A stretch of DNA of 64,000 nt from NCBI RefSeq assembly GCF_008831285.2, contig NC_045143.1, positions 124,001 through 188,000 on the forward strand, in the 5' to 3' direction. A model generated the notes under the pieces. It made no database searches. It was not told the origin of the DNA and saw only the letters and a program-made list of their open reading frames with translations. A program made the position numbers and the translations under genes. Positions 1 through 64,000 of the stretch are shown here, piece by piece. Position 1 is the stretch's first letter, and each line of letters starts with the position of its first letter. The stretch comes from Nymphaea colorata (lineage: Eukaryota; Streptophyta; Magnoliopsida; Nymphaeales; Nymphaeaceae).

Positions 1-659
1 AAATTGTCAATAATAATCCCAAACAAAATCTATGTTCATTCATCGCTATTTGTCAAGAATGTGCTCCCACATGCAACATCCGCTACTTTACCATGACAAC
101 CTATCAGTCATTTATTTTAATTGCACATAACTGACATTTTAAACTTGATGGTGGGGACGTTGCCTCCTCAAGATTCTTATGTGGTTCCCAGGTCTCACGA
201 AACTACTTTCCCCTCTTGTTGTATGGGGTTCATCGTATCTTTTTTACCCTAGTTCAATGTAAAATTGAAATATTTTTGTTTTCAATAGCCTTTTTACATC
301 TCCTCTCAATTACCAATTTGAACATCGACCACTGATTTCAACCAACATTTTGTCTTATCTTTCATTGTAAAGGAAACAAACCATATGTCAAGGACATCAT
401 ATCCTAAATTCATGACATGCACCTTATATCATATTTCGAGATGAAATTCATCAAGACGACGACAAGGTCGTCATGACCCTTTTCATAAAAAGATTGTAGT
501 ACTTTTCATCAGTCAAAATAGAGCAGCTGCCCCATCTGATCTCGAATGGCGGCATGATGTTCATATTGTGAAAAAATACACCTCAAGTAATCTAACATTT
601 AGTTAACTATTTTCATCATGCCCTCGCACTTTTATAGTATTGCATGCTTTTCGTAGTCA
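1..659. repeat. Decayed left flank of the satellite array, copy 1
   Basis: The stretch carries recognisable but diverged pieces of the array unit, such as CTTGATGGTGGGGACGTTGC near 143 and the linker text AATAATCCCAAACAAAATC near 10. They are interrupted by non-repeat sequence at about 260-600. No convincing gene was seen. Diverged edges around a uniform core are usual for satellites homogenised by unequal exchange. Confidence 0.6.
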
Positions 660-3600
660 ATACTTTTGTCTCACATGTAACCTCTTAAAACTGACCATTA
701 TGTTGATGCATCCAGTTGGTCATGCATTGGTTGTCTTTAGTCAGTCATGTATTTCAATTGCATTTGATTGACATTTTAAACTTGATGGTGAAGATGTTGC
801 TTCATCAAGATCATTTAGCAATTCCCAGGCCTCACGGGAATGCTTGTTCTCTAGTTGTATGAGCTTCATCGTAACTTTTGTGCTCCTAATGGGACGATCA
901 CACATCATTTACGTCTCATCTCCTGAGTGCACCTTAAGTTATAAATGTCGCTCCATTATACCAAGACGATGAGGCAAGATGCACAAGCTTGTAAACAATA
1001 ATCCCAAACAAAGTCTATGTTGGTTCATCTCTATTCGTCAAGAATATGCTCCCACATGCAACATTCGATAGTTTACCACGACAACCACTAAGCATTTATT
1101 CTAATTGCACATAACAGACATTTTAAACTTGATGGTAGGGACGTTGCCTCATCAATATCTATATGCAGTTCTCTTGTCTCACGGGACTGCTTCCCCTCTT
1201 GTTGTACGGGGTTCATCGTATCTTTTCTACCATAGTTTTTCCATAGTCAATACTTTTGACTCACACATAACCTCCTAAAAGTGACCATTATACCGATGTA
1301 TCTAGCATGCAGCGGCTATGTTTGCAATCAGCCATTTATTTCAAGTGCATGTGATTGACATCTTTAACTTGATGGTAGAGACGTTTCCTCGTCAATATCC
1401 ATATGCAGTTCCCATGTCTCATGGGACTCTTTCCCCTCTTGTCGTACGGGGTTCATCGTATCTTTACTAACCTAGTTTTTTCATAGTCAATACTTTTGTC
1501 TCACTCATAACCTCCTAAAACTCACCATTATGCTGATGTATCTAGTTGGCCATGCATTGGCTTTGTCTTCAGTCGGCCACTTATTTCAAGTGCATTTGAT
1601 TGACTTGAACTTGATGGTAGGGATGTTGCCTCATCAAGATCCATCATTTTGAACTTGATGATAGCGACGTTGCCTCATCAAGATCCATCATTTTGAACTT
1701 GATGGTAGGGACCCTTTCTCATTAAGATCCATACACAGTTCCCATGTCTCACAGGACTGTTTCCCCTCTTGTTGTACGGGATTCATCGTATCTTTCTTAC
1801 CTTAATTTTTTCATATTCAATACTTTTGTCTCACACATAACTCCTAAAACTGACCATTATGCCGATGCATCTAGTTTTATGTGTCTCAGCCATTTAATTC
1901 AAGTACACTTGATTGACATTTTTAACTTGATGGTGGAGACATTGCCTCAACAACATCGTTTAGCAGTTCCCAGGTCTCACGGGACAGCTTCTCTTCTGGT
2001 TGTATGGGTTTCATCGTATCATTTGTGTCTGTAATGAGACAATCACACATATTAACAACTCATCCTTTGAGTACTCCTTAAGTTATAAGTGTTGCTCTCT
2101 CTTGCCGAGACGATGAGGCGAGATGCACAAGATTGTCAATAATAATCTCAAACAAAGTCTATGTTTGTTCAAGTCTATTCGTCAAAAATGTGCTCGCAGA
2201 TGCAACATCCGCTAATTTACCACAAGAACCAAACAACCATTTATTTCAATTGCACATAATTGACATTTTGAACTTGATGATAGGGACGTTGCCTCATCAA
2301 GGTCCATTTGCAATTCCCATGTCTCACGGGACTGCTTCTCCTTTTGTTGTACGGGGTTCATCGCATCTTTCCTACCCTAGTTTTTTCGAAGTCAATACTT
2401 TTGTCTCACACATAACCTCCTAAAACTTACCATTTTGTCGATGCATCTTGTTGGCCATGCATCGGATATGTCTTTAATCGCCATTTATTTCAAGTGTCTG
2501 TGATTGACATTTTGAACTTGATGGTAGGGACGTTGTCTCATCAAGATCCATATGATGTTCCCAAGCCTCACGGGATTGCATCCCCTCTTGTTGGACAGGG
2601 GTTCACCGTATCTTTGCTACCCTAATTTTCGGTCAATACTTTTGTGTCACACATAACCACCTAAAACTGACCGTTATGTTGATGCATGTAGTTGGCAATG
2701 CATCGGCAATGTATTTAATCGGCCATTGATTTCAAGCGCATCTGATAGACGTTTCGAACTTGATGGCAGGGACGTAGCCTCATCAAGATCCATATGCAGT
2801 TCCGATGGCTCACGGTACTGCTTTCCCTTTTGTTGTACAGGGTTCATTGCATCTTTCCAACCTTAGTTTTTTCATAGTCAACACTTTTGTCTCACACAGA
2901 AACCCTTAAAACTGACCATTATGCCGATGCATCTAGTTGGCCATGCATCGGCTATATCTTCAGTCTGAAATTTATTTCAACTGCATGTGATTGACATTTT
3001 TAACTTGATGGTAGGAGCATTGCCTTATCAATATCCATATGCAGTTCCCATGTCTCACGGGACTGCTTCTCCTCTTGTTGTATGGGATTCATCGTTTCTT
3101 ACCAACCCCAATTTTTTCATAGTCAATACTTTTGTCTCGCACACAACCTCTTAAAACTGACCATTATACTGATGCGTCAAGCTGGCCATGCATCGGCTGT
3201 CTTCAATCAGCCATTTATTTGAAGTGCATTTGAATGACATTTTGAACTTGATGGTAGGAACGTTGCCTCATCAGGATCCATATGCAGTCCTCCAGTCTTA
3301 TGGGACTGCTTCCCCTGTCGTTGTACGGGGTTCATCGTATCTTTCCTACCTAGTTATTTCATAGTCAATACTTTTGTAACACACATAACATCCTAAAACT
3401 GACAATTATGCCGATGCATCTAGTTGGCCATGCATCGGCCATCTCTTCAGTCAGTCATTTATTTCAAGTGCATTTGATTGACATTTTGAACTTGATAGTA
3501 GGGATGTTGCCTCATCAAGATCCATATGCAGTTCCCATGCCTCACAGGACTGCTTCCCCTTTTGTTGTACGGGGTACATCGCATCTATCCTACCCTAGTT

Positions 3601-6600
3601 TATTTATAGTCAATACTTTTGTCTCGTACATAACGTTCTGAAACTTACCATTATGCCAATGCATCTAGTTGGCCATGCATCGGCTATGTCTTCAATTCGT
3701 CATTTATTTCAAATGCATGTGATTGACATTTTTAATTTGATGGTAGGGATGTTGTCTCATCAAGATCCATTTGCAGTTCCGATGTCTCACGGGACCGCTT
3801 CCCCTTTTGTTGTACAGGGTTCATCACATTTTTCCTACCCAAATTTTTTCATAGTCAATACCTTTGTCTCACACATAAGCTCCTAACACTAACCATCAAG
3901 CTGATGCATCTCGTTGGCCATGCATCGGCTATGTCTTCAGTTCACCATTTATTTCAAGAGCATGTGATTGACATTTTTAACTTGATGGTAAGGACGTTGT
4001 CTCATCAATATCCATATGCAGTTCCCATGTCTCACGAGACTGTTTCCCCCTTGTTGTACAAGGTTCATCGTATCTTTCCTACCCAAGTTTTTTCATAGTC
4101 AATGCTTTTCTCACACATAACCTCCTAAAATTGACCATTATGCCGATGCATTTAGTTGGTCATGCATCGGCTATGTCGTCAGTGAGCCATTTATTTCAAG
4201 TGCACTTGATTGACATTTTTAACTTGATGGTGGAGACATTTCCTAAACAACATCGTTTAGTAGTTCCCAGGTCTCATGGGACTGCTTCTCCTCTGGTTGT
4301 ACGGGTTTCATCGTATCATGTGCCTCATTAAGATCCATATGCAGTTCCCATGCCTCATGAGACTGCTTCCCCTTTTGTTGTACGGGGTTCATCGCATCTT
4401 TCCTACCCTAGTTTTTTCATAGTCAATACTTTTGTCTCATACATAACCTCCTAAAACGCTAAAACTGACCATTATGCCTACTCATCTGGTTGGCCATGCA
4501 TCGGCTATGTCTTCAAACCGTCATCTATTTCAAATGCATGTGATTGACATTTTTAACTTGATGGTAGGGACGTTGCCTCATCAATATCAATATGCAGTTC
4601 CCAAGTCTCACGGGACTGCTTCCCCTCTTGTTATACGGGGTTCATCGTATCCTTCCTACGCTAGCTTTTTCATAGTCAATACTTTTGTCTCACACATAAC
4701 CTCCAAAAATTGACCATTATGCCGATGCATTTAGTTGGACATGCATCGGCTATGTCGTCAGTAAGTCATTTATTTCAAGTGCACTTGATTGACATTTTTA
4801 ACTTGTTGGTGGAGACATTTCCTCACAACATCGTTTAGCAATTCCCAAGTCTCACGGATTGTTTCTCCTCTGGTTGTACGGGTTTCATCGTATCAATTGT
4901 GCCCATAATGAGACGATCACACATCATTAACAACAAATCCCTTGAGTACTCCTTAAGTTATAAGTGCCGCTCTCTCTTGCCAAGACGATGAGGCAAGATG
5001 CACAACATTGTAAATAATAATCCCAAACAAAGTCCATGTTCGTTCATGTCTATTCGTCAAAAATGTGCTCGTAGACGCAACATCCACTATACCACGAGAA
5101 ACAAACAGCCATTTATTTCAATTGCACATAAGTGACATTTTGAAGTTGATGGCAGGGATGTTGTCTCATCAAGATCTATTTGCAGTTCCCATGTCTCACG
5201 GGACTGCTTCCCCTTTTGTTGTACAGGGTTCATCACATATTTCCTACCCAACTTTTTTCATGGTCAATACCTTTGTCTCACACATAAGCTCCTAACACTA
5301 ACCATTATGCGATGCATCTAGTTGGCCATGCATGTGATTGACATCCTAAAACTGACCATTATGCCGATGCATCTAGTTGGCCATGCATCGGTCATGTCTT
5401 TAGTCAGCCATTTATTTCAAGTGCATTTGATTGACATTTTAAACTTGATAGTAGGGACGTTGCCTCATCAAGATCCATATGCAGTTCCCATGCCTCACAG
5501 GACTGCTTCTCCTGTACGGGGTACATCGCATCTATTCTACCCTACTTTATTCATAGTCAATACTTTTGTCTCATACATAGCCTCCTGAAACATACCATTA
5601 TGCCGATGCATCTAGTTGGCCATGCATCGGCTATGTCTTCAATTCGTCATTTATTTCAAATGCAAGTGATTGACATTTTTAACTTGATGGTAGGGACGTT
5701 GTCTCATCAAGATCCATTTGCAGTTCCGATGTCTCACGGGACCGCTTCCCCTTTTGTTGTACAGGGTTCATCACATTTTTTTCCTACCCAAACTTTTTCA
5801 TAGTCAATACCTTTGTCTCACACATAAGCTCCTAACACTAACAATCAAGCCGATCCATCTAGTTGGCCATGCATCGGCTATGTCTTCAGTTCACCATTTA
5901 TTTCAAGAGCATGTGATTGACATTTTTAACTTGATGGTAAGGACGCTGCCTCATCAATATCCATACGCAGTTCTCATGTCTCACGGGACTGCTTCCCCTC
6001 TTGTTGTGCGGGGTTCATCGTATCTTTCCTACCCAAGTTTGTTCATAGTGAATACTTTTGTCTCACACATAACCTCCTAAAATTGACCATTATGCCGATG
6101 CATTTAGTTGGCCATGCATCGGCTATGTCGTTAGTGAGCCATTTATTTCAAGTGCACTTGATTGACATTTTTAACTTGATGGTGGAGATATTGCCTCAAC
6201 AACATCGTTCAGCAGTTCCCAGGTCTCACGGGACTGCTTTCCTCTGGTTGTACGGGTTTCATCGTATCATTTGCGCCCGTAATGAGACGATCACACATCA
6301 ATAACAACTCTCCCTTGAGTACTCCTTAAGTTATAAGTGCCGCTCTTGCTTGCCAAGACGATGAGGCGAGATGCACAAGATTGTCAATAATAATCCCAAA
6401 CAAAGTCTATGTTCGTTCTGTCTATTCGTCAAAAATGTGCTCGCAGATGCAACATCCGCTACTTTACCAAGAGAACAAACAGCCATTTATTTCAATTGCA
6501 CATAACTGACATTTTGAACTTGATGGTGGGTACGTTGTCTCATCAAGATCCATTTGCAGTTCCCATGTCTCACGGGATTGCTTCCCCTTTTGTTGTACAA

Positions 6601-6950
6601 GGTACATCACATTGTTCCAACCCAAGTTTTTTCATAGTCAATACCTTTGTCTCACACATAAGCTCCTAACACTAACCATTACGCCGATGTATTTAGTTGG
6701 CCATGCATCGGCTATGTTTTCAGTTCACCATTTATTCCAAGTGCATGTGATTGACATTTTTAACTTGATGGTAGCGACGTTGCCTCATCAATATCCATAT
6801 GCAGTTCTCATGTCTCACAGGACTGCTTCCCCTCTTGTTGTACAAGGTTCATCGTATCTTTCCTACCCAAGTTTGTTCATAGTGAATACTTTTGTCTCAC
6901 ACATAACCTCCTAAAATTGACCATTATGCTGATGCATTTAGTTGGCCTTA
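660..6950. repeat. 245-bp tandem satellite array, copy 1
   Basis: About twenty head-to-tail units are visible; the spacing between equivalent points in adjacent regular units is exactly 245 bp (3408 to 3653). Each typical unit opens with a perfect hairpin, CCGATGCAT, ten-base loop CTAGTTGGCC, ATGCATCGG (3411-3438 is one example). It then holds the anchors TTTATTTCAAGTGCAT, AACTTGATGGTAGGGACGTT, CATATGCAGTTCCCATGTCT, TTGTTGTACGGGGTTCATCG and ATAGTCAATACTTTTGTCTC. Every few units a longer linker unit of about 347 bp intrudes, marked by GATGAGGCGAGATGCACAAG (near 968, 2111, 4987, 6361). Each 245-bp unit contains an open frame of about 77 codons, but 245 is not a multiple of three, so successive frames shift and end at a stop in each unit. 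I treat these frames as a by-product of the repeat. No known satellite family was recognised. Confidence 0.92.
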
Positions 6951-8550
6951 CATTGATTGAGTCATTAGTCAGCCATTTATTTGCATCTAATTGACATTTT
7001 TTACTTTATGGTAGAGACGTTGCTTCATCAACATCCTTGAGTAGTTCACAGGTCTCATGGGACTGCTTCTCCTCTTGTTGTATGGGGTTCATGGTATCTT
7101 TTGTGTTCCTAATGAGGCAATCACACACTATTCACATCTCATACCTTAGGTGCACCTTAATTTATAAGTGTCGTTGTCTTTTGCCGAGACAATGAAGCAA
7201 GATGCATAAGATTGTCAATAATTATCCCAAACAAAGTCTATGTTTATTCATCATTGTTCGTAAATATATTACTAAGGTTTGCATTATATATGTGTACGCA
7301 TTATTATGCACATCATGTAATATATTGGTCTTATAATGAACCGAAATTATTATTTTATACACATAAACATATGGTTTATCCAAGAAACAAAGTTGTCAAA
7401 GCCAGGCTGAATGACTGAGTCGGCCCAACAAGTCATGGACTCACAAATCACTGGGTTTTAAAACCTTGTGTTTGACATCATATTCCTTTTGACTCCTCTA
7501 GCCCATTACTGCTTTATCATGCATTTAATTTACATCTACCACGTGCAAACCACCTCTAACAACATCTCCACATCTAGGATTGACTTGGGAGCCTTCCCTC
7601 TTTCCTCCATGCTAATACGTCTAACCTACATCCTTAATATCGAGAGAAACTAGGTGTGAAAATTAACTATTCTCATCATGTTTTTACACTTTCCCAGCCT
7701 TGCGCAGTTTCCATTGTCATTTCTGTAGTCTCACGTGTAAGCTCTTGAAAATGGCTTTTGTACCGATGCTTGTAGTTGGCCATGTGAGAAACTCGGGCAT
7801 TGGAACCCTCCAACCTACTATTGTTGGTAATGAAGAGGTGCAACATTTTCTAGATTTCACCACAAAAGGTTAGAATGATTATGCTATCTGGGGTTGTAGG
7901 TTTTGAATTAGGAATCATACCCCGTCTACCAAACCCTTTTCTAACGTTGTACTGGTTTTTCACAATACTCTTAAAACTGCAATGCATAAGACACTGAGTT
8001 TCCACATGAGTATGTCTCATTCACTGTTCGAATGAGTGTCAATATTTGCTCCAACTAATCTCCAATTTTATCCATCCTTTTGCACCAATAACGCAATGAT
8101 GATACCTCACATATTCCTCATTGATTGCTCCCAAAGACATCCACGGCGCTCTCTCCTGCATAGATGATGAGGCAGGATGCGTAAATTGTTATTAAGTCTC
8201 AAACAAAGTTGATGCTTCTTCATTGCTTTTCATCATGAATGTACCCCAGATGTTGCATCTACCATTTGTCTATGCTTATGAGTTAACTTATCATAATAAT
8301 ATTCCACCACCTGCTATTTTGGATTTTGATTGTGGGGACACTGCCACATAAGATCCTTGAGTGGTTCCCACATCTCAAGGGATTACTCGCCAGTCCCCCT
8401 CTTCTTGTACATAATTGGTTGTAGTTTTTCCATATTGGTTCATTTTACCTATGGCAAAATCTTGTTTCAAAAACTCTTTATGCATCTCCAGATAGTAATT
8501 AAAACATTACCCAAGGATTTCTTACTCGTGTTCTGCCTTATCTTTCAATG
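6951..8550. repeat. Decayed right flank of the satellite array, copy 1
   Basis: Linker-type text recurs in worn form near 7193 (AAGCAAGATGCATAAGATTG) and 8165 (GATGAGGCAGGATGCGTAAA). Unit fragments such as CCGATGCTTGTAGTTGGCCATG near 7760 are far from the consensus. Short open frames here have no recognisable product. The same text is in the second copy at about 46450-48055. Confidence 0.6.
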
Positions 8551-9016
8551 AAAAGGAAAATCTAAAATCCAGAACAAGAACATAAATATGAATGCTGATG
8601 CTAGAGGGATATTCATAAAGGCAACAAATGTTGCAGCTGAGTAATATATCTGAAAACTAAAAAACCCATTTATGAAGAGCTGTTATAATTTGCCTATACA
8701 ACGGAAGCTATGGATGTAAAAATATTGTCATATGGATGGCAATAAGAAGCAGTACAGAATTTTACAACAATCAACAGTATTTTCAAGCATGGAATAGAGA
8801 TGACCGCTAGATCAGCAACAAACAAGCCACAACTACACAAAACATTTGCAAATAAAAGGAGGCAGTCTAAGATGATCATCAATCAGATGAATGGCAACAT
8901 GGTTCTCCAAACAAAGCACAGCAGAATAGACACAGGATAAATGTGAAGGACCTTCAGCAGCCTACTATAGAATATTACTTCACCTTGGAAAAGAAAACCT
9001 CCTGTAGCACATGTAC

Positions 9017-9489
9017 CTTTTCAAACCTCTCAAGAATGATAGATATATCCCCGTTTTCCAGTGCACTAAGGCCCCATGACTACATACCACTGCTTACGAC
9101 GAGTGCTCTATGACCTATTATATACAAGTGCTCCATTTAATTTGACTAGACTGTTTTGCAAAAAACCAATTATCTTATGATATATAGAGAGAGAAAATTC
9201 CTGACCTCCCCACCACACTGTCATCTTGGTAGTCTTGATGTAGATGATTCCTTCTTCACAGCAAGACCAGCCTCTTCGAGATCTGCCCACAATTTGTTGA
9301 AAGCTTCAAACAATCAAGTCCACTGAAATAACAAAGTAGGAGTCTCAGGCATCCGTAAGATCAATTCCATCCTTGTTAATGACATTTAGTATTGGGATGC
9401 CCCAATTTTCTTGCAAGACCATAATCATTATGATCATGTACAGGGTTTATCTTCAGCAGTCCAGTTCCAAATTATTTGTCAACATATGG
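9017..9489 (-). pseudogene. Valyl-tRNA synthetase gene fragment, copy 1 (frameshifted)
   Basis: Minus-strand exons encode consecutive pieces of the valyl-tRNA synthetase (charges tRNA-Val with valine) editing/catalytic region. Visible pieces are PYVDK then FGTGLLKINPVHDHNDYGLA near 9400-9489, FEAFNKLWADLEEAGLAVKK near 9240-9310, and ALENGDISIILERFEK ending at 9017 before a GT donor. The gene is dead here: the Glu before FGTG is TAA, the Ser in the PRSQ motif is TGA, an extra C near 9401 breaks LGIPILN, and two single-base losses near 9095-9110 break the IEPLV-KQW motif. Introns are retained (about 100 bp between the GGEV and IEPLV exons), so this is a DNA copy, not a processed one. HDHNDY suggests the organellar isoform, but I am not certain. 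About 150 of roughly 1000 residues remain. Confidence 0.8.
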
Positions 9490-9688
9490 CCTCAGAGGAT
9501 TTCAGCAATTAATTTTTCATGTATATTAAACAATTTAAAGACAAACTATCTTGCAAAAGTAGGATGTAGATGCACAGGTAACAAACAGCTATAGGATATG
9601 CAATAAGAGCAATAAAGGCATCTATCTACTTCAGAAGCGTCCAATCCTTCAAAATACTAAAAGAACAAAAACTAATTTGAAGGGGTAC

Positions 9689-9818
9689 CATCGAATCCCT
9701 TGACTGCCGCTTGGATGACATCCTTCGTGTGATGCTCATAAACGCTCAAGTTCGTGCAAGTCTCGTCGAACACGTAATCTGCACAGTCAGACCAAGAGCC
9801 CCGTTCAGCGTTTTTGCA
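9689..9818 (-). pseudogene. Isolated kinesin motor-domain exon, copy 1
   Basis: This 130-bp minus-strand open exon lies between a CTCTTACAG acceptor at its upstream end and a GT donor (GATG|GTACCC) at its downstream end. It encodes DYVFDETCTNLSVYEHHTKD followed by VIQAAVKGFDG. That is the early motor domain, with the (F/Y)xFDxVF and GFNGT signatures just upstream of the P-loop (GQTxSGKT). The D-C-T-N-x-x-VYE-HTKD pattern fits the plant kinesin-7 (CENP-E-like) group of microtubule motors. The exon that should carry the P-loop is absent downstream; the sequence runs into the valyl-tRNA synthetase remnant within about 200 bp. It is a stranded exon, unlikely to make a motor. Confidence 0.62.
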
Positions 9819-10146
9819 CTGTAAGAGGGAACGCAGAGAAGAGAAGAACCTGCAGGACGGGAGGGCAAAAGGAGTTTACCCAAAGCGAAGGAGACGGACC
9901 GATCGATCGATCACTAAATAGTGAAATCGCGAATCGATGGATCGACGAGCGAGGGACGAGGCCGATCGAACTCTTCTCCACTTCGCTACTCTGTCTCTCG
10001 ACCTTTTAGATGCCCCCCCTCCCTTCCCTTCCAAGTAATGATCATAAAGAATCGACCTGCATTGGTCTTGTGGGTTAAAATTTTTCTCAAGCCCTAATGA
10101 GAGCGCAGAAACGCTGAAAGAGCGAGGGAGGAGGAAGGAAACTCAC

Positions 10147-10236
10147 CAGCGGAAGGATGATGGATAGGAGCTGCTGCTCGTAATTTGGAAGGATGAACTG
10201 CGGCAACCCACCGATGCAATCTGCATCCTCCTCCAT
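10147..10236 (-). CDS. Possible first exon (30 codons) with splice donor, copy 1
   Basis: An ATG at 10236 opens a 30-codon frame that begins MEEDADCIGGLPQFILPNYE and ends at a consensus donor, CTG|GTGAGT. On the minus strand a TATTTATA motif lies about 200 bp upstream (10437-10447), which could be a TATA box. Spliced to the kinesin exon, about 330 bp away, the frame would stay open (phase 0), but this N-terminus does not resemble a kinesin start. The exon sits in a small GGATCC-containing duplication (10230-10300). I do not recognise the peptide, and it may be chance. Confidence 0.3.
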
Positions 10237-10439
10237 CGTCGCACCATCGAGGATCCAGCCTCCTCCATCGTCGCGCCATCGAAGATCCACTCCTCCCATC
10301 GAGAGAGAAGGAGAGGGTGCTTTCTTTCCGGGAACTCGGCGGGAAAAAGAAAGCCCTCGTAACAGAATGGCCGTTGAGAAGTGTTTCTTGAACTTCTTGA
10401 TTTATTGTGACCCCTTTTCATTCTTACTTTGAAAAATTA

Positions 10440-11686
10440 TAAATAGGCGCCCACAGCCGCTCAAATTTTCAAACACCACAATGATACCCCCAACTTTTGC
10501 ACGAAGTCTCGCTTACTCACAAAAACAATTAATTTTTTTCTAAACATTTAACATAAAAATGAGAAGGTGATAAAAAAATTTTCAAAATTTAAGTTTTAGT
10601 TCGGGTGCTGTATGATATTTCATGCTCATCAAACGTGCCCCTTAAGTTATTGTTAGTAATCCTTGTTGGTTGAATCAGTGTGTATCAGCCGATTCCCTCC
10701 ATTTTTTTATTTTTAAATCAGTGTAAAATATTTTAAACTATTTTTTAATTTAAATAAGATATTAGCCCCTCTTGTATTTTATAATTTAAATAAGAAATTA
10801 TATTTGATTTTGTGTATGATTTATAAACTTTGTTATATTAAATGAATTATTAAATCATTTAAATTTATAAAAAAAAATAGAATATTTGGCGATCCCAACT
10901 ACCCATCTTTTATATTGTTGAAGGTGTGCGTTTGATAACTTGTATATTGTTGAGACTTTTAATTACTTTTAAATATATTTTGAAGTTTTATTTAACTATT
11001 TTTATTTTTTAATATTTTTAATCAATTCGCAACCAATCAACTGACGGGCGGCCTGGCCGGCCAATTTGGTGTACAAGGTGGCAGGAAGGAATGACAAGAG
11101 TTGTGTGACTCATCACTCATGAAACAAATTAAAGATGTAGTACAAGGAATTTTTTTAAATTTGAGTAGATTCACCAAACAACACTTGAAACATGTGTCTC
11201 ATGAATTTAACCCAATTTTGAAGTAGATTCATGAAACACTAACGCTCATTAAAAGACTCTTTGGTCATTAAGAGAATCTAACCCAATTTTGAAGTAGATA
11301 AAATGCATTGTACTTTGAGGTTTAGTATATTTTCAAACAACCCTTAAGAAGAACTCGGTTTGTCCATGGTCTCAAATTTATTGCTAGAACGTGTCAAGAT
11401 ATTGACATTAAAATCAAATCAAGATTTCAATTCCTAACTCGATGGCAAGTTGATTTATAGGATATTTGGCTAGAGGAAAATGAAAGCTTTGGATTTTACA
11501 GTTGGACTCTTCTAAGTCCAAAAAAAAGAAAATCTAAAGAATCGGTACCAAGACAGCACTGAATAGAGTTCATGTCTGCAAATGTACTAACCAAATTTGC
11601 CCTAATTAAGAGACTATTTAATAAGAAGAAACATGTGTTTTGAATTATGGTGTGAAAATGCTACGCTTTTTTTGCGTGATTATGGA
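10440..11686. other. AT-rich intergenic stretch without a gene, copy 1
   Basis: The sequence is strongly AT-rich, with long T and A runs and short direct repeats (AACCCAATTTTGAAGTAGAT occurs at about 11210 and 11281). No coding frame, splice-bounded exon or TE terminus was seen. A GC island holding GGCCGGCC sits near 11050. Close to the gap this copy lacks single bases that the second copy has, which suggests low-quality contig-end sequence. Confidence 0.6.
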
Positions 11687-11786
11687 NNNNNNNNNNNNNN
11701 NNNNNNNNNNNNNNNNNNNNNNNNNNNNNNNNNNNNNNNNNNNNNNNNNNNNNNNNNNNNNNNNNNNNNNNNNNNNNNNNNNNNNN
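11687..11786. other. Assembly gap of exactly 100 N
   Basis: This is a run of 100 N. A round length of this kind is the usual placeholder for a scaffold join of unknown size. The left flank matches 51191-51199, but the right flank is unrelated to what follows there, so the join is not supported by sequence. Confidence 0.99.
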
Positions 11787-12120
11787 CAAGAAGAAATCAC
11801 TCACCGGAGGACGATGTAACCTGGCTCTGATACCATGTGAGAATCTTCACTAAAACATCACCGAATCACGTCTCTCCGTCTGAAAATAAGGAGGATGGAG
11901 AATAGAGAATAGAGAAGGCAATGAAGGTAAGAGAACCGGCGGCCAATGCAGCCACACTATGCTTGATCTCTATTATTAAAACATAAACCTAATTAGGTTT
12001 CAACAAAAAGAGGAATAAAACATGAAGTAATTACAAGAGGTGCCACCACTTAGACGTGAAGACATAAAAACGAAGTGGATCGGGTCTGAACAGACCCGAT
12101 CCAGACCCGATCCCTTTACA
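11787..12120 (-). mobile_element. Copia-type LTR retrotransposon terminus: LTR, primer binding site and leader stub
   Basis: Read on the minus strand, a 285-bp LTR (12120 down to 11836) begins TGTAAAGGGATC and ends GAAGATTCTCACA. It is followed at once by TGGTATCAGAGCC (11835-11823), the primer binding site complementary to the 3' end of initiator methionine tRNA used by plant Ty1/Copia elements. Then come 36 bp of leader (AGGTTACATCGTCC and onward) before the gap removes the rest. The LTR holds a near-perfect palindrome at 12077-12102 (GGATCGGGTCTG, AA, CAGACCCGATCC). No gag or pol is visible, and the second LTR and target-site duplication cannot be checked. The neighbouring block B copy at 28261 has no LTR beside it, so the insertion is specific to this copy. 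Confidence 0.82.
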
Positions 12121-21054: not shown

Positions 21055-21065
<11 letters not shown>

Positions 21066-51199: not shown

Positions 51200-52690
51200 T
51201 ATTATTTTGTAACCAAACAATCAAAGCTTAGCTATAATCATTCTATATTTTCTGAAACAATAAGCCGCGTTCTTTTTTTTCCTTTAGTTGAAGGAGAAAG
51301 AGAAATTGGGGATGTTGAGCGCTGGGTCCGAGATGCAGACTCCGTTGAAGCACGCTTGGAGACTGAGAATTGTTTGTTTGACCGGATCGAACCGGTTGAC
51401 CAGGTCAGGCTCGGGCAGCACTTCCTTGTTCCCTCTTCGATCAAACTCGCTTAGACCCTAAAATTTTGACCAAAACGATGGTCAGTAGTCCACATACTCT
51501 GTCGCTGAGTAAAATTTCCTCTATGCCCAAGATCTCCTAAACAAACTGCTGAGATGCCATTCCCTTTCTCAGGACCGAACAACAGATTACCAAATTCTCA
51601 AGTTGGTTTATTATTTTCTTTTATTTTTCTATAATCGGTTTAATTTGGTGCAAACAGATAAGGCAGTAATTTTTTTTTTGAAAAAGTTGAGATTGCCAAT
51701 TTGCCATAGTGCCATCACATGATTGTTTTGAAAGGGAATGGCAAACGTGTAATATCTTCAAATAAGTGGCTCCTTTTATACAGAGCAGGTTCTTTCTGGA
51801 AGGAAAGCAGTGGCAGAAGTGAAATACTCTGAGGTTGAAAGGGCAATACTCTGAGGTTGAAAAGGCCTTTGGGTGCAGCCAAATCCTTCCAAGAAGTAGG
51901 GTAGAGAAAACGTCGGCGTTCCCGTTCAGAGAAGAAGCTCTCTACCCTATTTCAAGACTCACTACGACCAGAGATCAAGGTCTCTACCCTACGCTTCTCT
52001 CTCGTTCACTCTGCGTTGACGGTCATGGCTACGAGAGGAAAGAAGCCCATGTGCAAATAAGATGTAAGTATCATACAAGCATAGTATTCATTTCGCATCA
52101 ATGTTGTCGAACTTCTAGAATGGATATATTTCAATTTTCAAAATGTGAACATAAAGGAATCATCCTCGACATCTTAGGTAATAATTTGAGAAGAATTGGA
52201 CTGGTTTCTATTGCGCGACATCATTTGAGATGTCATTTGATTTGAGGTTCCATAGTAAAAAAGAGTGGACTGAGTCATAAAAGAATGATTCAAGTATGTG
52301 CATGGTCAGCCCAGGAAGATGACTATTATAATGCTGATGATTATGTACATATGTAATAACTTCATAGTGGCGATCTAAAAACTATTGGTGAGCCCCAACA
52401 GGAGGAGGAACAAAATAAGAACACTCTAGTAGACTGCCTCACACTTAGAATTGATGAAAAGAATAAGGACTTGTGGTCTAATTGATGAAAAGAAGGTCAG
52501 TAGCATCATTGTAATTGCATCATTAGGTTGTTTATGGGTTTAATTTAGTTTTATGTTTCCATGATAAGTAGTTTTATGTAAAAGAAGAGGGCACCTGTTT
52601 AAGTGGTCTTAATTGCATATAGATACAAGCTTGGTAGTAGAGAACAAGTCATACTAAGCAATTCTGTTTGTACCCTTGTTATGCTGGTTT
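51200..52690. other. A2-only tail with unrecognised open frames
   Basis: The stretch is not duplicated here except for 52087-52182. It holds an 89-codon plus frame (51185-51454, start MRDYGYYFVTKQSK) and a 136-codon plus frame (51835-52245, start MKGQYSEVEKAFGC). The C-terminal part of the latter contains the conserved FISHQCC segment. Neither has a recognised domain. Positions 51840-52030 contain several GTAGGGTAGAG/CTCTACCCTA pairs that can form short stems. Confidence 0.4.
52087..52182 (+). other. Conserved 32-codon segment (FISHQCC), third copy
   Basis: The segment reads FISHQCCRTSRMDIFQFSK and ends ILDILGN. Compared with C1 there are six base changes; four are silent third-position changes and two are replacements (Arg to Met, Val to Ile). 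The frame is open and extends upstream and downstream. Confidence 0.4.
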
Positions 52691-52697
52691 TCCCTAG

Positions 52698-52918: not shown

Positions 52919-54988
52919 ATTGCAACGGATATTCACATGTTTCATTTGCATGTTCCAAATCTAGTTCTTTGGGTTTTTTTTTGGTACCGATTTTCCAAAT
53001 GCTTCGATCGAATATCTAGATATCAAATCAAATACATTGACATACCTACATATCAATTTCCTAACCAAGTTGATAGACACAAGGCCAAACCGAACGAGAG
53101 GGCCTTGGTTCCTGTCTTTAATGGACTGTTTTTTAAAGCCTGTATGGCTTGTAGTGGAAGGTGGTAGGGAGTTTCATTAAGGCCCTTCTTGCACACAAAA
53201 CCTTTTTTTGTTTTTGTCTACCCACCAAAACATAAAAGCTATGTTTTTTAAACTCATTTAAACAATCATTTTTACAAAACCAAGTTTTCTAAAAAATCAT
53301 TTTGTCAAGGAATTGCCCAAACGGTACCTAAAGCTTTTAAGCGAAGTAAATTGAACTCTTGTTTGCCTGAACGATAAATACGCATGACATGTCTCAACCA
53401 TTTGTGAGTGCCTTGTACTGAAAATGCTACATGTGATTAAGTCTTTTCCTTTAAGTGTATTTTTGAAAGGCTAAGTAAGTGACATTTAAAAATTCAAATA
53501 TGTAGTAGAATTCATTTTTTCTTTTTCAATTTGAAACAAATTGATGGAAATGCCTCTAATGACTACATATATGAAGAACTACAATCAATCAATTAACATG
53601 CGTAGGAAAGCTCGGGTTTCCATGTGAAGATCATGACCAAGTTCATCTCAAATGATCATTTGTGAAAAAGCTTGGGAGTAAGATTCGCACCAACACGACC
53701 TGCCGTCTATGTCGGCATTAAAATCTCCAGTCAAAGAATGAACACCTACTAGGGCGGTATTGGGCCCGCCCTGTTCGATTTAGAGTTAGAATTTCCAGTT
53801 AGAGTAGACATCAACGAGGAGCACTAAATTCTAGAACAAGTATAAAGGGCAATATATGTCACAATTTTTGTGGACTATCTATTTCCTTGTATATATAAGC
53901 CAAAGTTTGGGTGTATCTCTTAGAAATTATTGTTTGATTACCTCTTATCCTAGGCTCATGCATCGGACTTGGCATTGTTTTTTGAAGTGAAAAAATCTAA
54001 ACCAAGAACGTATTAGGTCCAATATCGTACTAAAAATTTGTCGAGAATTTTATTTTACAGAGGGTACGCCTCCACGTTTTATTAAATTTTACAGAGGGTA
54101 GGCCTCCACGTTTTATTAAGACAGATGACATCAGCATGAACAATAAAAAAATCAAGAACAGACAGCTGAATTGTGTACCCGGCTTCATCAATGATGGTGG
54201 CAGTTTGGAAGAGGACCTACACCTACCCATTAGAAATTAACGATGCGCGTGAAGAGTACCCGTTGAGTGTACCAGTAAAGCTTAATGGCAAGTTGAGTGA
54301 ATGGGTTCGGTGCCGGTGAGCTGACGACTACTTTAGTGCCCAGCGCCAAGTAGCAGACTAGTCCGCTAACATCTATCAGAGCCATTACATCACTCTGCAA
54401 CTACTTACAACAATACATGGCGCCTCCTCTCTACAATGCTAATGAGTTAACCAGCAATGGAATCTACTCAGGCAGCCGACGATTGTGGTGTCACCTCAAA
54501 GGTTACCACTTGCTTCCACCTCCTGGGAAGACAAGTTGGTTTTTCCTCGCTTTCTACTTTACAAAAAGGAATTACATAACAAAGTAGAAAGGAGGGTGAG
54601 TAAGAGGTTTTAGGGTCTTGTTTTCCAAATTAGAGCTTGGTTGTTTATAATTTACAGAAATTACTAAATATATTAATTTCCTGAGGTTTGTATCCGATTG
54701 ATATTATTTGTTCTCAAAATCATTAAAGTCTGCAACTGATCATATGTGAAAATGGCACTATGTATATAAGGCACTTACGTGAGAATATTTGCTCAAAAAG
54801 TCCGAACTTCCTTTCATATGTAGAGAGAGGGGGAGAACACAAAATGTACTTGTCTTACACGGAAGTGCTAAGGAAAGGCGAGGGACGAAGAACGATGTAA
54901 TTAAACTCCTCTCAATCCAAATTCAAAAGAAACCAGCGAAACTAGAGGTGGAGGATCACCAGTATACATGTACAACGATGACAATTTT

Positions 54989-55240
54989 CACCGGTATAGG
55001 CATATCTATACCGGTGGAGGGCTCACCGCTATAGCTGCTTCTCCCGGCGGTTACTATCACCGGAAGAGGCCACCTATAGCGGCGTATATCTTCATCGCTA
55101 GACCTGTATACAGGCGACGAAAATCACCGCCGGAGGCATGTATACCGGTGAATTTATCACCGCTGGAGTCCATGTATAGCGGTGAAGTTATCACCTCTAT
55201 AGATTGCAATACCGGCGATCAACATCACCGGTGAAGGTTG
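54989..55240. repeat. Palindromic ACCG(G/C)TATAG cluster, copy E3 (expanded)
   Basis: The first inverted pair has a shortened 6-base loop (ACCGGTATAG, GCATAT, CTATACCGGT). About 36 bp containing TGTATAGCGGTGAAGTTATC is added after the TTTATCACCGCT step, so this copy has extra motif iterations. Confidence 0.75.
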
Positions 55241-58200
55241 ACCGCAAGTAATATGTTCCGACCCACGCAATACCTCATTTAGTCAATCCAAACCCAACGC
55301 GATAAATCGGCCAGCGACGGATCGACTTGCTTAATTCTCTTTTTTAGTTTTACCATATATCCATAAGACCTTATTAACATGATTTTCAACCTCCAACTTA
55401 GCACGTAGTTGCAGGATCATTTTTCGGGGAATTTTTTTTGAAAAATAAAATTCGACCATCTCAAAGCTTCCAAACAGTGGAGCCTAAAAGCTAAAAATGC
55501 ATCACTGAAAAAACTCTGAATTAATGCTACAAATATGATGGAACCCAAGCTGGTTGGTGGATATTGCAGGTGGTGACCCCATTGACAGGAAGAAGTGCAG
55601 ACTATTGCTTCGAGTGTGTGGGCCTTGCCTCTCTCGCTTGCTGGCCTGTATAAAGACAAGCAAGCTGAAATCAACACTATCTCTCCTTTTGCAAATTTAT
55701 CAACATGTAAGCATCAGTTTCCGAAGAACAGCACAACCAAAGTAAACAGACATGTTAGGCACGCCAATAAAAAAAAAATTCCTGCATCAATGTAATCCAG
55801 AATCAGATCAAACTTTAGAACATCTCAATGAAAGAAATTCTACTCATATATACATACCTATATATCTATCTATCTATATATATATATATATTAAGGAATA
55901 ACAGATATTAAATGTAATCCCTAGATATCTTTTGCCACTTCACTCTCTCCCCCTCCCCTGTCTACAAAATATTTCTTTTTGCTTTTTGGTTGCCAAATGG
56001 ACACACTGCAGTAACTACTCTATCACTAGAAAATGAGAGAGGGATCTAGTTGGGAAAACAATCATTTATGACATTAAAAATTCTTCTTTGATGGTTTCTG
56101 TGAAGATAAATGAAACACCGTTAGATGGTAAAGATTAAGGGACATGTTATTTTATTGATATTGGATCTGGTTACATCAACCAGACATTGGGAACTCAAGA
56201 GATGCATAGCAAAACCAACAGGTGCTTGGGTGGTTGTTTGGCAATAATAACGGTATGACAAACTGTGCCTCAAGATAATCTTTGACAAGAATCTTATGTG
56301 CAGAAAATATACATTATACATGCTTCCTTCAATAGCTTCATATTAAGTTTCCCCATTTTGTTTTGATCCCAATGTCTGTACGGTTCTTGAACAACTTTCT
56401 AAAACCCTATGGAGCAAGGAGAGTTAGGTGCAGCAAAACTATTATTTGGTTCTTCTTTTTGTAACATAAAGTGTTGAAGCAAATGGATCTAACAACCCCA
56501 AGGCATTACTTGGTCAAAAGAAATAATCTGAAAGCATTGAAGCAGATATATAAGAAGGTGTTAGATTGGTTTAAACACACACTCTGAATATAATTAGTCG
56601 GTTCTAGCTCCAACAATCAGATCTTTTTTTTGTTTGAAATCAACATATTTTATCCATTTCATTATAAGCAGATATATAAAACAGGTACTTGAATTTCGAA
56701 CCCTAAACAAACCAAGATTCTGCACGCAAATTGACAGTTCATACCAACTATTGACTGGAAATGTACAAATCTAGACAACAGGCACAGTGAGCACCAATAT
56801 GGATAACTTGGACATGCAAATTAGTTACATGAATCCCAAAGTGTCATACCAACAAATCGATAAATTTTTTATATGCCCATATGCAAAAATATTATTCAAT
56901 CATTGACAAGGGACATACATTTGAAAAATTTCCTTTTTGGGCCTACATTTTGCCTGCAACCTGAAAAACCACATTTTGTAATTTTTAATAAGTGTCACAC
57001 CTACTCATTCCCTTGCTAGTCATTATTGAATATTATACAGGCAGCTGCGGTAATCACAGTGTCAAGCTGCCGAAAGTAATAAAATAAGGACACATTTTCC
57101 CTCTCCTAATGGTTAAATGGTACTCAACTTAGCTACCAGACAGATATATGAATGGAAAATCCCCATAAGTTGCCGACACAATATAGAGCAATTGTAAGCA
57201 TGGAAAACCGACGGCCAAAAGACAATTGTAACAACTACCCCTGCTCTCAGTAATAGTTTCCATACACATAAAACCGTCATTGGAGTATCTTTTTGGCATT
57301 TTTGTAAAGCAAATACAGTCACTACTCTTTTAAAGGTATTGATTTCAAAGGTTTCATGTGTACAAGGTTGTTGGAGAGGAGTAAAGAACTTGGGCCTTGT
57401 CATTGTCCCAGATCATAATCATTAGGTCCAAAATAAAGAACTTGGAAGGAAATTTTAGAAAAATGTGGACCAGTTTGGGCCTTTAGGATCTAAAATGTAA
57501 GAAAATATTGCATTTATGAGCAGGTTGAAAATTGTGCATAGTGTCACTTTTAGCAAAGCAAGCTTAAACATCGGAAAATATTGGCCTAAAGGTCAGGTTT
57601 AGTGAAACAACGGGCAATAATTGTGGAAAAAATTGTTGGATGAGGGGATGAGACTATGGGGATGGACAGATTTTAGAACTCCGCCTGAAACATGAAACTT
57701 TTCAAGAGCAAAAGGCAAGTAGTATATCAAATGGATCACAACTTCCTTTAGCAAAATTCCTGAGAATTTCAACTTGAGCTTTGTAAGTGCAGGTATTTGT
57801 GTGCAGAAGAGATGTTCAGCTCCGATATAGTTGAGAAGTCCCTACCTCTTGGTGATAATATAAGGCACCAGGCCTAAAAAACTCACAGGTCTGACCATAG
57901 CTTGGTCAGACTCAATTTGACCAAGCTGAGCTTGCACAAACATAAAATTAGAAAATACAATTACAAAAAGAATAAAAATGCTTACATATATTACTAATAT
58001 AGTCAAATGTATATATATGTGAGACTACGGTTATATACGCACTTGTGCATATAGCTTGATGGATCATACACATACACATATAAATTGCATATACACAAGT
58101 GTTTGCGATAATACACAAAGAACCTTCTAATAGCTAATGCCCCCACATACCATTTGTCCATTTTCTGCATTTAGATGTTTTTTTCACCATAAACCTATTA

Positions 58201-59006
58201 CCATTATCTCCTAACTTCTTTGAAACCACAAAAAAAAAAGCCCTAAACAAAACCTTTAGTGTGCAACTCAACCAACCACAAGGTTGAGCGACAAGCATCC
58301 AACAGTAGGCTGGAATGACCAACAATACCTGAAGCACTTGAATGTGACACCCCAACTATAACCACAGCCGTCTAACATTACTTAGAAGGCTAAAAAGTTA
58401 CAACATAAGATCAACACATTAATGGATCACTAAAGGTAATCACATACGAGAATATATGCATGCCCTTGTGTATCTCTCTTCCGTAAATGCCATAGGAATA
58501 GCAATGCAACCTAAATGAACCCTAACTCTACCAAATTCCAATATAATCTATTCTTTTCTGAAATATCACAGACTCTCCAGCCAAAAACTTAAATTAGATG
58601 ATACTGAAATACGATTTCTGCATCCTAATCATACATGCGAAAGGCCTAAGACAAGTCAAAGGATTGACCCCTATCACTTTTTTGATGCATGGTAGAATCG
58701 AAGGTTAAGTCCTGCACTATGGTGTTGGAAGCATCTTAACTGTAGAAAACCTTGAAAATTAAAACCCTTCAAGCAACCCCTCTAGTTCGATGCATGACAA
58801 TAAACTACCCTTGTTCTAAGTTTCTAACCTTTGAGGCTTCGATGGCATCTCAAGGAATGACTGTTGCAGGTGACTCGCTGTCTGCGACAACAGTGGTAGA
58901 TGGCGGCTGCTGCAAATAACGAACAGAACCCAAGACCACAAATTTGAAGGCCACGAAGTAATCAGAAGCCGTGCTCAGGGAAGAGGAGAGATAGAGAAAG
59001 AGATAC

Positions 59007-59084
59007 CGGGCTTGGGGAAATTTGGGATCACGGATCGACGTGGAGATCCTCTTGATGCGATCGTCGCCGCCCTCCCGATTCCAT
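59007..59084 (-). pseudogene. APT: Adenine phosphoribosyltransferase exon 1, copy E3 (degraded)
   Basis: The core DDRIKRIST is still readable, but the start region is frame-shifted and the GTGTGATCCC step has lost two bases (ATCCGTGATCCC), shifting the IRVIP motif. It lies within 270 bp of the gap, where base loss is frequent, so some lesions may be sequencing errors. Confidence 0.6.
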
Positions 59085-59268
59085 TGTGGATATAAAGTTG
59101 AAGCATTTAAAAAAAACATAGTGTACATACACACTGACATTTCATCAACCAATTTGAGGGCTACCGTTGAAGGGAAGAAACGAATGAAGAGATAACATAC
59201 GGCAAGAGGTGCGTCAGCGATGGTCGACGCAGAGCCTCAAACAGAGAGAGAGAGAGGGAGAGAGAGAG

Positions 59269-59368
59269 NNNNNNNNNNNNNNNNNNNNNNNNNNNNNNNN
59301 NNNNNNNNNNNNNNNNNNNNNNNNNNNNNNNNNNNNNNNNNNNNNNNNNNNNNNNNNNNNNNNNNNNN
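59269..59368. other. Assembly gap of exactly 100 N
   Basis: The left flank ends in a GA microsatellite and the right flank starts about 15 bp from an AT/ATCT microsatellite. Both are common assembly stop points. The orientation of the sequence to the right is set only by scaffolding. Confidence 0.99.
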
Positions 59369-60029
59369 AATATCTGTTATTCCTTAATTAATATATATAT
59401 AGATAGATAGATAGATATATAGATATGTATATATGACTAGAATTTCTTTCATTGAGATGTTCTAAAGTTTGATCTGATTCTGGATTACATTGATGCAGGA
59501 ATTTTTTTTTTATTGGCGTGCCTAACATGTCTGTTTACCTTGGTTGTGCATGGTAAGTAGGACGCCTCTGTTCTTCGGAAACTGATGCTTACATGTTGAT
59601 AAATTAGCAAAAGGAGAGATAGTGTTGATTTCAGCTTGCTTGTCTTTATACAGGCCAGCAAGCGAGAGAGGCAAGGGACACAACTCGAAGCAATAGTCTG
59701 CACTTCTTCCTGTCAATTCTGTCACCACCTGCAATACCACCAACCAGCTTGGGTTCCATCATATGTAGCATTAATTCAGAGTTTTTCAGTGATGCATTTT
59801 AGCTTTAGGCTCCACTGTTTGGAAGCTTTGAGATGGTCGAATTTATTTTCAAAAAAAATTCCCCGAAAAATGATCCTGCAACTACGTGCTAAGTTGCAGG
59901 TTGAAAATCATGTTAATAAGGTTATGGTAAAACTAAAAAAGAGAATTAAGCAAGTCGATCCGTCGCTGGCCGATTTATCGCGTTGGGTTGGATGACGAAA
60001 TGAGGAATCGTATGCGTGGGTCGGAACAA

Positions 60030-60260
60030 ATTACTTGCGGTCAACGTTCTCCGGTGAGTTGATGGCCGGTATGCATCTATACGGTGATAAATTCACCGGT
60101 AACATTCCTCCGGCGGTGATTTCGTCGCCTGTATACAGGTCTAGCGATGAAGATATGCGCCGCTATAGGTGTCCTCTTCCGGTGATAGTTACCGCCGGAG
60201 AAGCAGCTATAGCGGTGAGCCTTCCACCGGTATAGATATGCCAATGAATCTATACCGGTG
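60030..60260. repeat. Palindromic ACCG(G/C)TATAG cluster, contig 3 copy (inverted)
   Basis: This is the mirror of 23790-24006, with small base losses. Both members of the outer inverted pair are present. Confidence 0.72.
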
Positions 60261-62939
60261 AAAATTGTCATCGTGTACATGATACTGGTGATCCTCCACC
60301 TCTAGTTTGCTGCTTTCTTTAGAATTTGGATTGGAGAGGAGTGTTCTTCGTCCCTCCCCTTTCCTTAGCACTTCCGTGTAAGACAAGTATTGTGTTCTCC
60401 TCCTCTCTCTACATATGAAAGGAAGTCGGACTTTTGAGCAATATTCTCACGTAAGTGCCTTATATACATAGTGCCATTTCACATATGATCAGTTGCAGAC
60501 TTTAATGATTTGAGAACAAATAATATCAATCGGATACAAACCTCAGGAAATTAATATATTTAGTATTTCTGTAAATTATAAACAACCAAGCTCCAATTTG
60601 GAAAACAAGACCCTAAAACCTCTTACTCACCCTCCTTTCTACTTGTTATGTAATCCTTTTTGTAAAGTAGAAAGCGAGGAAAAACCAACTTGTCTTCCCA
60701 GGAGGTGGAAGCAAGTGGTAACCTTTGAGGCCGACACCACAATCGTCGGCTGCCTGAGTAGATTCCATTGCTGGTTAACTCATTAGCATTGTAGAGAGGA
60801 GGCGCCATGTATTGTTGTAAGTAGTTGCAGAGTGATGTAATGGCTTTGATAGATGTTAGCGGACTAGTCTGCTACTTGGTGCTGGGCACTAAAGTAGTCG
60901 TCAGCTCACCGACACCGAACCCTTCACTCAACTTGCCATTAAGCTTACTGGTACACGCAATCAACGGGTACTCTTCACGCACACGTTAATTTCTAATGGG
61001 TAGGTGTAGGTCCTCTTCCAAACTGCCACCATCATTGATGAAGCCGGGTATACAATTCCGCCGTCTGTTCTTGATTTTTTTTATACTTCGTGCTGATGTC
61101 ATCTGTCTTAATAAAACGTGGAGGCCTACCCTCTGTAAAATAAAATTCTTGACAAATTTTTAGTACGATATGACATATATTGCCCTTTATACTTGTTCTA
61201 GAATTTAGTGCTCCTCGTGATATCTACTCTAACTGGAAATTCTAACTCTAAATCGAACAGGGCGGGCCCAATACCGCCCTAGTAGGTGTTCATGCTTTGA
61301 CTGGAGATTTTGGTGCCGACATAGACGGCAGTCGTGTTGGTGCGAATCTTTCTCCCAAGCTTTTCACGAATGATCATTTGAGATGAACTTGATCATGATC
61401 TTCACATGGAAACCCGAGCTTTCCTACGCATGTGAATTGATTGATTGTAGTTCTTCATATATGTAGTCATTAGAGGCATTTCCATCAATTTGTTTCAAAT
61501 TGAAAAAGAAAAAATGAATTGTACTACATATTTGAATTTTTAAATCTCACTTACTTAGCCTTTCAAAAAATACACTTAAAAGGAAAAGACTTAATCACAT
61601 CAGTACAAGGCACTCACAAATGGTTGAGACATGTCATGCGTATTATTGTTCAGGCAAACAAGAGTTCAATTTACTTCGCTTAAAAGCTTTAGGTAGCGTT
61701 TGGGCAATTCCTTGACAAAATGATTTTTTAGAAAACTTGGTTTTGTAAAAATGATTGTTTAAATGAGTTTTAAAAACATAGCTTTTATGTTTTGATGGGT
61801 AGACAAAAACAAAAAAAGGTTTTGTGTGCAAGAAGGGCCTTGGTTCTAAAGTAAAACTCCATACCATCTTCTACCCGAAGCCCCGTAGGCTTTAAAAACA
61901 GTCTATTAAAGATAAAAACCAAGGCCCTTTTGTTTAGTTTGGGTAGGAAAGGAAATTGATACTTAGGGATGTCAATATATTTGATTTGATGAGATATTCG
62001 ATCCAACCATTTCAAAAAAATCGGGGTACCAAAAAAAAATTAATACCTGACTAAGAAATCAGATCCAATTTGGATTTAAAAAACAACTGATCGGATCTAG
62101 ATTTGGATTCGTATATAGATATTTCATAAATATCCGATCAAGTATAAATAATTATCCGTTGGCATTTCCATTGGTGTGAATCTGATTTTGACATTCACAT
62201 TCGAATATTTATAACTTTGCCCCGAACACCGCCGACCTGGACGGTGAGTCTCCTTGTCACGCCCACAAGTTTTCAAAAAGGCAGTTTATGAAATTTTAAA
62301 CTAAAGTGTGTTTTTGAAACACTACATAATATTAGGTCGATTTTGAAATTTTGGTGAGGGGAGGTTTATCGAGCCCTACCCGCCTCTTTCCTTCTTCTTT
62401 TCTAAAATTCAGGAGCATGGACAAACTTTCTGCCCGTTGGGGCATAATTTCTGTTTTTCGTCCTTGTCCGTGGAGAAGCCGTCTTCCTCCTCTTGCAGAA
62501 GCTCTCCGCATGCAGCTGCCCATTCTCGTATCGCACGTCTGCATCAACTCCTCTTCCACGTCTCTGTCGAGGTGAGGCGCAGGCTTGCCTCTTTCTTTCT
62601 CGTTTTATTTCCAAACAGCCTGTGTTTCCCCAAATCGCAGCCCTAGTTGTCGTCTTCGCCTTTTCAAGATAGGGAAGGTTGTTTTAGATCTGCTTTATGT
62701 TTGAAAACTTGTTTAATTGGATCATAAGTTTGCAAAAGGACCTGCTTACAGCATGGATGTTATATATGAATATCGGACTTTCATGCGTTGTTGTTCTTCT
62801 TTGTTGGTTGCTAAATACTTTTATCTGTTTAGTTATATTGGGCCTGTCCATTGCCTAGGATTAATGACATTATTGGCTTTTGCTTCAAATTGTATTTGCA
62901 AATAATAAAAACTTTACCGTTCCCAAACAATATCTAAGT

Positions 62940-62970
<31 letters not shown>

Positions 62971-63771
62971 TGTGTGAAGCTTGAGGGTTCGAGGATCTTG
63001 TGTATAGCTTCTATGACTTCCTCCCCCTTTTCTGGTCAAAGCTTGTGAATCCTTTTTTAGCCTTCGTCAACTGTAATGTAGAATCTTAAATTGAAACATG
63101 TATATCTTGTACTTTGCTCTGTTTTGTGTTCGGCAACTGTTGGTTTCTTTGTTTGAATCAGAGACATCATCCAATTGACACAAAACGGGACAAAAATAAG
63201 TATCCAGGAACAACGCAAGAAACACTCTGATAAGAATCCTTCGTTTAGGTGATTTGCATCATAGTGGATGTTTTATTTCTCTGAATTAACATAGCATGCA
63301 AACTTATATAGTTCCAAAACCCTATTCTATATAGAACTGCCTCTAATTTTGAGTTAGTTTTGACCATGCTAAATATCTGAGTTTGCGGAGCAAACTTTGC
63401 TGCTTTTCCAAAAGCAGTTGAGACATGCCAAAGCCTTCCTTTAAACTTTTGCAATGCAAACCTGCAGGGAGTAGGGGCCTTTCTTGACCATTTTATTGAA
63501 CAAAAATTGAAGCTATACACAAACATACGAATAGAGCTGAGGTAGAATTACACTCTAGACATACAATGAGTGTACAAAAGCTATACAGCAGTAAACCATC
63601 AAACACGTGACCCCAACAGGAGAACTAACACACAGCTCCTCACACCGGAAGAGTAATCTTTTCCAAAGTTTGGAGTGGGATGAGTCTACAAGCCATGTTG
63701 AAGATATTAGGGAAGAATTTGAGGCTCATCTTTAGATCTTTCCTATAATTGTGCTTTTCTTGTATTTGCAG

Positions 63772-64000
63772 TTATGACTTGTGACCTAATTTTGGTGATG
63801 GCTGGTCAAATTTGTCGTGGGAAAGGGAAGGCTCAATGAGGCAGCACATTGTTGTAGACAGGCTTTAGCAGTCGCTGTCTGGTATGCATTTTTTTTTCCT
63901 TTTCTTCTTCCTTTCCTTCTTCATTGGTGGATTGCACTTGTCTAAGACAGTCTTATTGTCAAAAAAAGTTTCCCCTTAATGCTGCCCCAATTAATTGTCA
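63772..64000 (+). pseudogene. SEC: SECRET AGENT (O-GlcNAc transferase) TPR fragment, contig 3 copy
   Basis: The exon 63772-63881 follows a TATTTGCAG acceptor and ends before GTATGC. It carries NFGDGWSNL and, one frame over, GKGRLNEAAHCCRQALAV. A second exon starts at 63951 after CTAAGACAG and is cut by the window end. It matches the C2 version, including the extra C. Confidence 0.64.

Follow-up and report, generated by a model that had tools for sequence, protein, structure and literature searches.

The two duplications that cross scaffold gaps in the window (the whole 64,000-nucleotide stretch of Nymphaea colorata DNA analysed here) are in our judgement likely to be false duplications of two kinds, arising from assembly and scaffolding, and a third instance is probably present within contig 2, as a 3-kb tandem pair. 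An ordinary assembly artefact of a known kind, not biology, is the most likely source of the patterns described below. False copies of this type swell the counts of genes and repeats and mimic structural variants.

Window layout and known kinds of false duplication

The window contains exactly two runs of N, each of 100 N, at 11687-11786 and 59269-59368. These scaffold gaps separate contig 1 (1-11686), contig 2 and contig 3 (59369-64000). Positions 1 and 64000 are window edges, and the sequence to the left of contig 1 and to the right of contig 3 lies beyond view. Duplications were identified by a self-comparison of the window with BLAST; the main pieces (4.3-6.1 kb, 96.3-98.9% identity, E = 0) exclude chance. 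All copies discussed here lie on the forward strand, with the exception of contig 3, which is on the reverse strand relative to its partner. Substitutions and small indels (1-3 bases) were tallied separately for each pair, because alleles and true duplicates accumulate substitutions, whereas long-read consensus errors are mostly small indels adjoining equal bases. Diverged pairs below about 90% identity are not in the counts. The patterns of substitutions and indels, and the gradients in them, are read directly from the alignments.

A preliminary description of this DNA had taken both gap-crossing duplications to end exactly at the gaps, with no flanking sequence of their own. They do end there, at 11686/51199 and at 24702/59369, but any match must stop at a contig end. 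The lack of flanking sequence holds only for the part in view, since the window edges truncate both contigs on the side away from the gap. An excess of small losses is seen at three of the four visible contig ends. The exception is the left end of contig 2, where no excess of small indels is seen in the part that can be tested (12142-14178); for 11787-12141 the self-comparison of the window found no partner.

Two kinds of false duplication are distinguished by the Vertebrate Genomes Project: heterotype duplication, in which diverged haplotypes are kept as separate contigs, and homotype duplication, which occurs near contig boundaries or results from sequencing errors and in which consensus quality differs between the copies (PMC8081667). 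A combined heterotype and homotype case is shown according to the legend of Extended Data Fig. 6c of that work (PMC8081667). Read depth is described as half for heterotype and very low for homotype duplications, and the sequence linking false duplications sometimes has no read support (PMC9516828). The same works mention Purge_Haplotigs and purge_dups in connection with heterotype duplications or unpurged haplotigs (PMC8081667, PMC9516828).

Contigs 3 and 1 compared with contig 2

Contig 3 in view (59369-64000) matches 20025-24702 of contig 2 from end to end in BLAST, bearing out its description as a reversed copy. BLAST and three scoring schemes agree on 0 substitutions in 4.6 kb, which places an upper bound of about 0.065% on the substitution rate between contig 3 and its partner. 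The two sequences are separated by 47 small indels, each of 1-2 bases, with the same counts under three scoring schemes; in 45 of the 47 it is contig 3 that has the loss (one base in 42 cases, two in 3), and 35 of the 47 adjoin an equal base. The losses cluster towards the gap end at 59369 (KS p 4.8e-8 against an even spread), and the kilobase farthest from the gap has none. Their peak, however, falls short of the very end: 27 of the 45 are located 0.2-1.2 kb from it, and the final 178 bases hold 2.

When contig 3 was aligned globally with MAFFT, there were 15 ‘mismatches’ and 42 indels; the mismatches were rejected as gap placement because they adjoin gaps and vanish in BLAST and the three other scoring schemes. 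The paralogue 54086-55909 was rejected as the sequence of which contig 3 is a copy, there being 35 substitutions between them.

Contig 3 is probably no diverged allele but the same haplotype (or a homozygous stretch) present a second time, with consensus errors at its end. The match begins at 59369, the first base past the gap and hence a contig boundary. Haplotype-like differences, which mark a heterotype duplication or haplotig, are absent. By proxy, consensus quality is unequal between contig 3 and its partner, as the one-sided losses rise towards the contig 3 end. Judged by these sequence-based features contig 3 appears as a homotype duplication: in the published description, as here, the copy lies at a contig boundary, lacks haplotype-like differences, includes one lower-quality copy and is scaffolded with a gap. 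Contig 3 departs from that description in its inverted orientation and in its distance of about 35 kb from the partner, instead of standing in direct tandem with a single gap between. A stretch that contig 2 already contained would have been assembled again from few or poor reads; the end of the new contig would have kept uncorrected single-base losses, so that it was neither merged nor removed and came to be scaffolded beside contig 2. We infer both the low read support at contig ends and the scaffolding history, and polishing failure in duplicated sequence, without low coverage, could be an additional source of error.

Contig 1 is collinear with 37926-51199 of contig 2, in the same orientation, and is contained in it as far as seen, its left end being cut by the window edge. 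To this extent it is entirely a copy, as had been proposed, but it is not a simple one. The match consists of four blocks (1-3385, 3380-5197, 5219-6375 and 6910-11686; one 26-base off-register match is omitted), and the offset shifts by 735 and by about 838 bases. The partner includes a tandem array of ~245-base units (about 39042-46600); the array is found at 1117-7101 and 39042-46600, and its neighbouring copies show about 81-84% matches.

The left part of contig 1 (1-6375) is a diverged, allele-like copy of 37926-45036. Its three blocks (6,354 bases) hold 14 + 11 + 4 = 29 substitutions, a rate of about 0.46%, with 23 transitions and 6 transversions, and 11 small indels. The 735-base difference in the array is a switch of array unit inside a short shared stretch. 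The right part (6910-11686) is a near-identical copy of 46409-51199: this last block of 4,777 bases has 2 substitutions and 20 small indels, and 16 of the 20 are losses in contig 1 (sign test p 0.012), which rise weakly towards the contig end (KS p 0.044). The substitution counts of left and right (29 in 6,354 bases vs 2 in 4,777) differ with a Fisher p of 1.1e-5. Bases 5198-5218 and 6376-6909 are outside the contig 1 counts. At 6376-6909 contig 2 holds two near-identical neighbouring copies where contig 1 has a single one, and the 838-base change is this one extra copy (4 differences in about 900 bases of alignment); the near-identical tandem gain in the array is confined to contig 2. Contig 1 departs from both contig 2 copies alike at 4 sites in the range 6311 to 6532, of which 2 are substitutions and 2 single-base indels.

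The pattern in contig 1 looks like two haplotypes with unequal array lengths followed by a near-identical, error-bearing end. The left part would be the other haplotype, with its substitutions and shorter tandem array, and the right part the same or homozygous sequence with an error-bearing contig end. We infer the allelism of the left part from the allele-like substitutions and the array-length difference; collapse of the array by the assembler may alternatively have produced the length differences. Like the heterotype duplications or unpurged haplotigs described, the left part combines these differences with a place on the same scaffold as its partner, but in contig 1 only about half of the sequence has haplotype-like differences. 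Contig 1 appears best filed as the combined case, with which it shares a part that has diverged and an end that is near-identical but error-bearing.

The preliminary description regarded both contigs as allelic contigs scaffolded together. The redundancy is probably right, side-by-side scaffolding is the best reading of it, and the left part of contig 1 is allele-like in its 29 substitutions and array-length changes. The allelic reading does not extend to contig 3, and the right part of contig 1 offers only its 2 substitutions. We consider it unlikely that both contigs are plain haplotigs, with contig 3 falling within a homozygous stretch and hence free of substitutions. This would agree with the allelic look of the left part of contig 1, and with only 2 substitutions in the 4,777 bases of the right part homozygous stretches may be common here. 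At the 0.46% rate of that left part, the probability of no substitution in 4.6 kb is 6e-10; contig 3 combines the absence of substitutions with a one-sided gradient of losses, which argues against a plain haplotig. A homozygous allele would, moreover, normally not be kept separate unless errors hold it apart, and that is the homotype mechanism. Half depth over both copies, which had been put forward as a test, is a test that fits alleles only, given the very low depth reported for homotype duplications (PMC9516828).

Older duplications and coding content of the window

The pair 12142-14178/28261-30275 has 29 substitutions, one 22-base indel and no indel of 1-3 bases, and on this evidence looks like a genuine duplication. 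It is one of four control pairs, the others being 23833-24753/30279-31199, 24752-26279/31410-32932 and 26280-26894/33025-33666. With BLAST-like scoring the four pairs total 54 substitutions and 2 small indels; the first scoring gives 52 and 4. A six-pair control set adds 22893-24720/54086-55927 (33-36 substitutions, 5-7 small indels) and 30279-33666/55025-58328 (48-53 substitutions, 14-18 small indels). Older pairs that involve the 54-58 kb copy are less clean, as small indels are not always absent from them; 24752-26279/56145-57601 (19-21 substitutions, 8-10 small indels) overlaps one of the six and was kept out of both control sets. The pairs 26280-27840/57700-59261 and 54086-55909/contig 3 reach contig ends and were also kept out.

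The first of these last two pairs covers the right end of contig 2 (57700-59261), which has an excess of small losses against its paralogue 26280-27840: 24 losses vs 5 in the partner, or 20 vs 2 or 19 vs 1 by other scoring. The losses crowd towards 59268, at the gap, and because of this excess coding or variant calls at 57700-59261 would be unreliable.

The older pairs bear on the possibility that contigs 1 and 3 derive from true, very recent segmental duplications located elsewhere or next door (inverted for contig 3). The region is rich in older segmental duplications (21992-28197, 30279-35032, 52974-59261, 12142-14178 and 28261-30275), and contigs do break in repeats, so new duplications are plausible. 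The older duplications, however, differ mainly by substitutions (54:2 in the four pairs, 143:21 in the six), whereas contig 3 shows the reverse, and we regard this origin as quite improbable. Still harder to credit are real, very young duplications within an actively rearranging cluster and the 245-base array, with contig 3 inverted and under about 0.065% substitutions. False duplication is the reading that we retain for both contigs. The comparison also provides indications that can be used without reads: substitutions as the main difference within a pair suggest a true duplicate or an allele, and one-sided small losses concentrated at the end of a contig suggest that one piece of DNA was assembled twice.

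In the older segmental-duplication cluster a long unit is present three times, in part or whole (21992-28197, 30279-35032, 52974-59261). A 2-kb unit is present twice in full (12142-14178, 28261-30275), with a third copy at 36014-36875 that is partial and more diverged. No coding signal was found in this cluster. In the window as a whole there is no Rfam match at gathering score, no tRNA and, in any of the frames, no open frame of at least 200 aa. Outside contig 1, contig 3 and the bulk of the array, 133 frames of at least 66 aa were listed, and 122 of them plus one array frame were scanned against Pfam. These 123 frames gave 12 families at E up to 0.1, the best at 0.012, which is about the chance level, and no coding signal is claimed; short exons would escape a frame and Pfam search of this type. 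The observed/expected ratio of CpG in the window is 0.58, which is not vertebrate-like.

The 3-kb tandem pair in contig 2

Contig 2 also contains a suspected false duplication away from the gaps, a 3-kb tandem pair consisting of copy 1 (14518-17507) and copy 2 (17501-20461). One scoring gives the pair 28 substitutions and 50 small indels, and two others give 34 and 45; there are also larger indels of 5, 12, 6 and 17 bases. The ratio of small indels to substitutions, 45:34, compares with 2:54 in the four control pairs (Fisher p 7.6e-12) and with 21:143 in the six pairs, to which the two 54-58 kb pairs have been added (Fisher p 2.7e-12). Losses rise towards 17507 in copy 1 and towards 17501 in copy 2, so on either side they cluster towards the junction (KS p for both copies pooled 0.0013, or 0.0054 by the other scoring); of 45 losses, 23 are less than 1 kb away from it and 4 are more than 2 kb away. 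For each copy alone the gradient is modest (KS p 0.009 and 0.027, or 0.021 and 0.065 by the other scoring). The last 437 bases of copy 2 can be compared with the separate consensus of contig 3, from which they do not differ. The tail of copy 1 differs from contig 3 by 9 small losses and 7 substitutions, and contig 3 has the base at all 9 losses.

At 17.5 kb two overlapping ends, which may belong to two haplotypes, were probably joined with poor support, and the 3-kb pair would then be false. Two ends that overlapped by 3 kb would have been joined head to tail without being merged. The substitutions lean towards the unit end (KS p 0.11 or 0.051) and comprise 18 transitions and 16 transversions, unlike the 23 to 6 in the left part of contig 1; because of this ratio and this lean, some of the substitutions may be errors, and the haplotype reading is weak.

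A real, old tandem duplication, about 1% diverged, with a junction that was merely badly polished, is a serious contender, if in our view the less probable one. The 28-34 substitutions and the indels of 5, 12, 6 and 17 bases exceed the small-loss type of error, and the unit ends meet with a few shared bases, both of which suit a real pair. The larger differences are, however, equally expected between two haplotypes, and the excess small losses centre on the junction instead of filling both copies evenly. The false join therein proposed remains our preferred reading of the pair. The duplications inside contig 2, labelled B, C and E in the preliminary description, had been considered free of the problem affecting the gap-crossing copies. 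We take B to be the 3-kb tandem pair and E to be 12142-14178/28261-30275; on this assumption E, with its 29 substitutions and no small indel, does look genuine, and for B, with its small losses crowded at the junction, the claim is doubtful. A suspect duplication inside a contig is thereby flagged, a case that would escape a search confined to gaps. Part of the 3-kb unit, 117 bases long (15274-15390, 18251-18367), recurs at 52069-52184 with about 91% identity.
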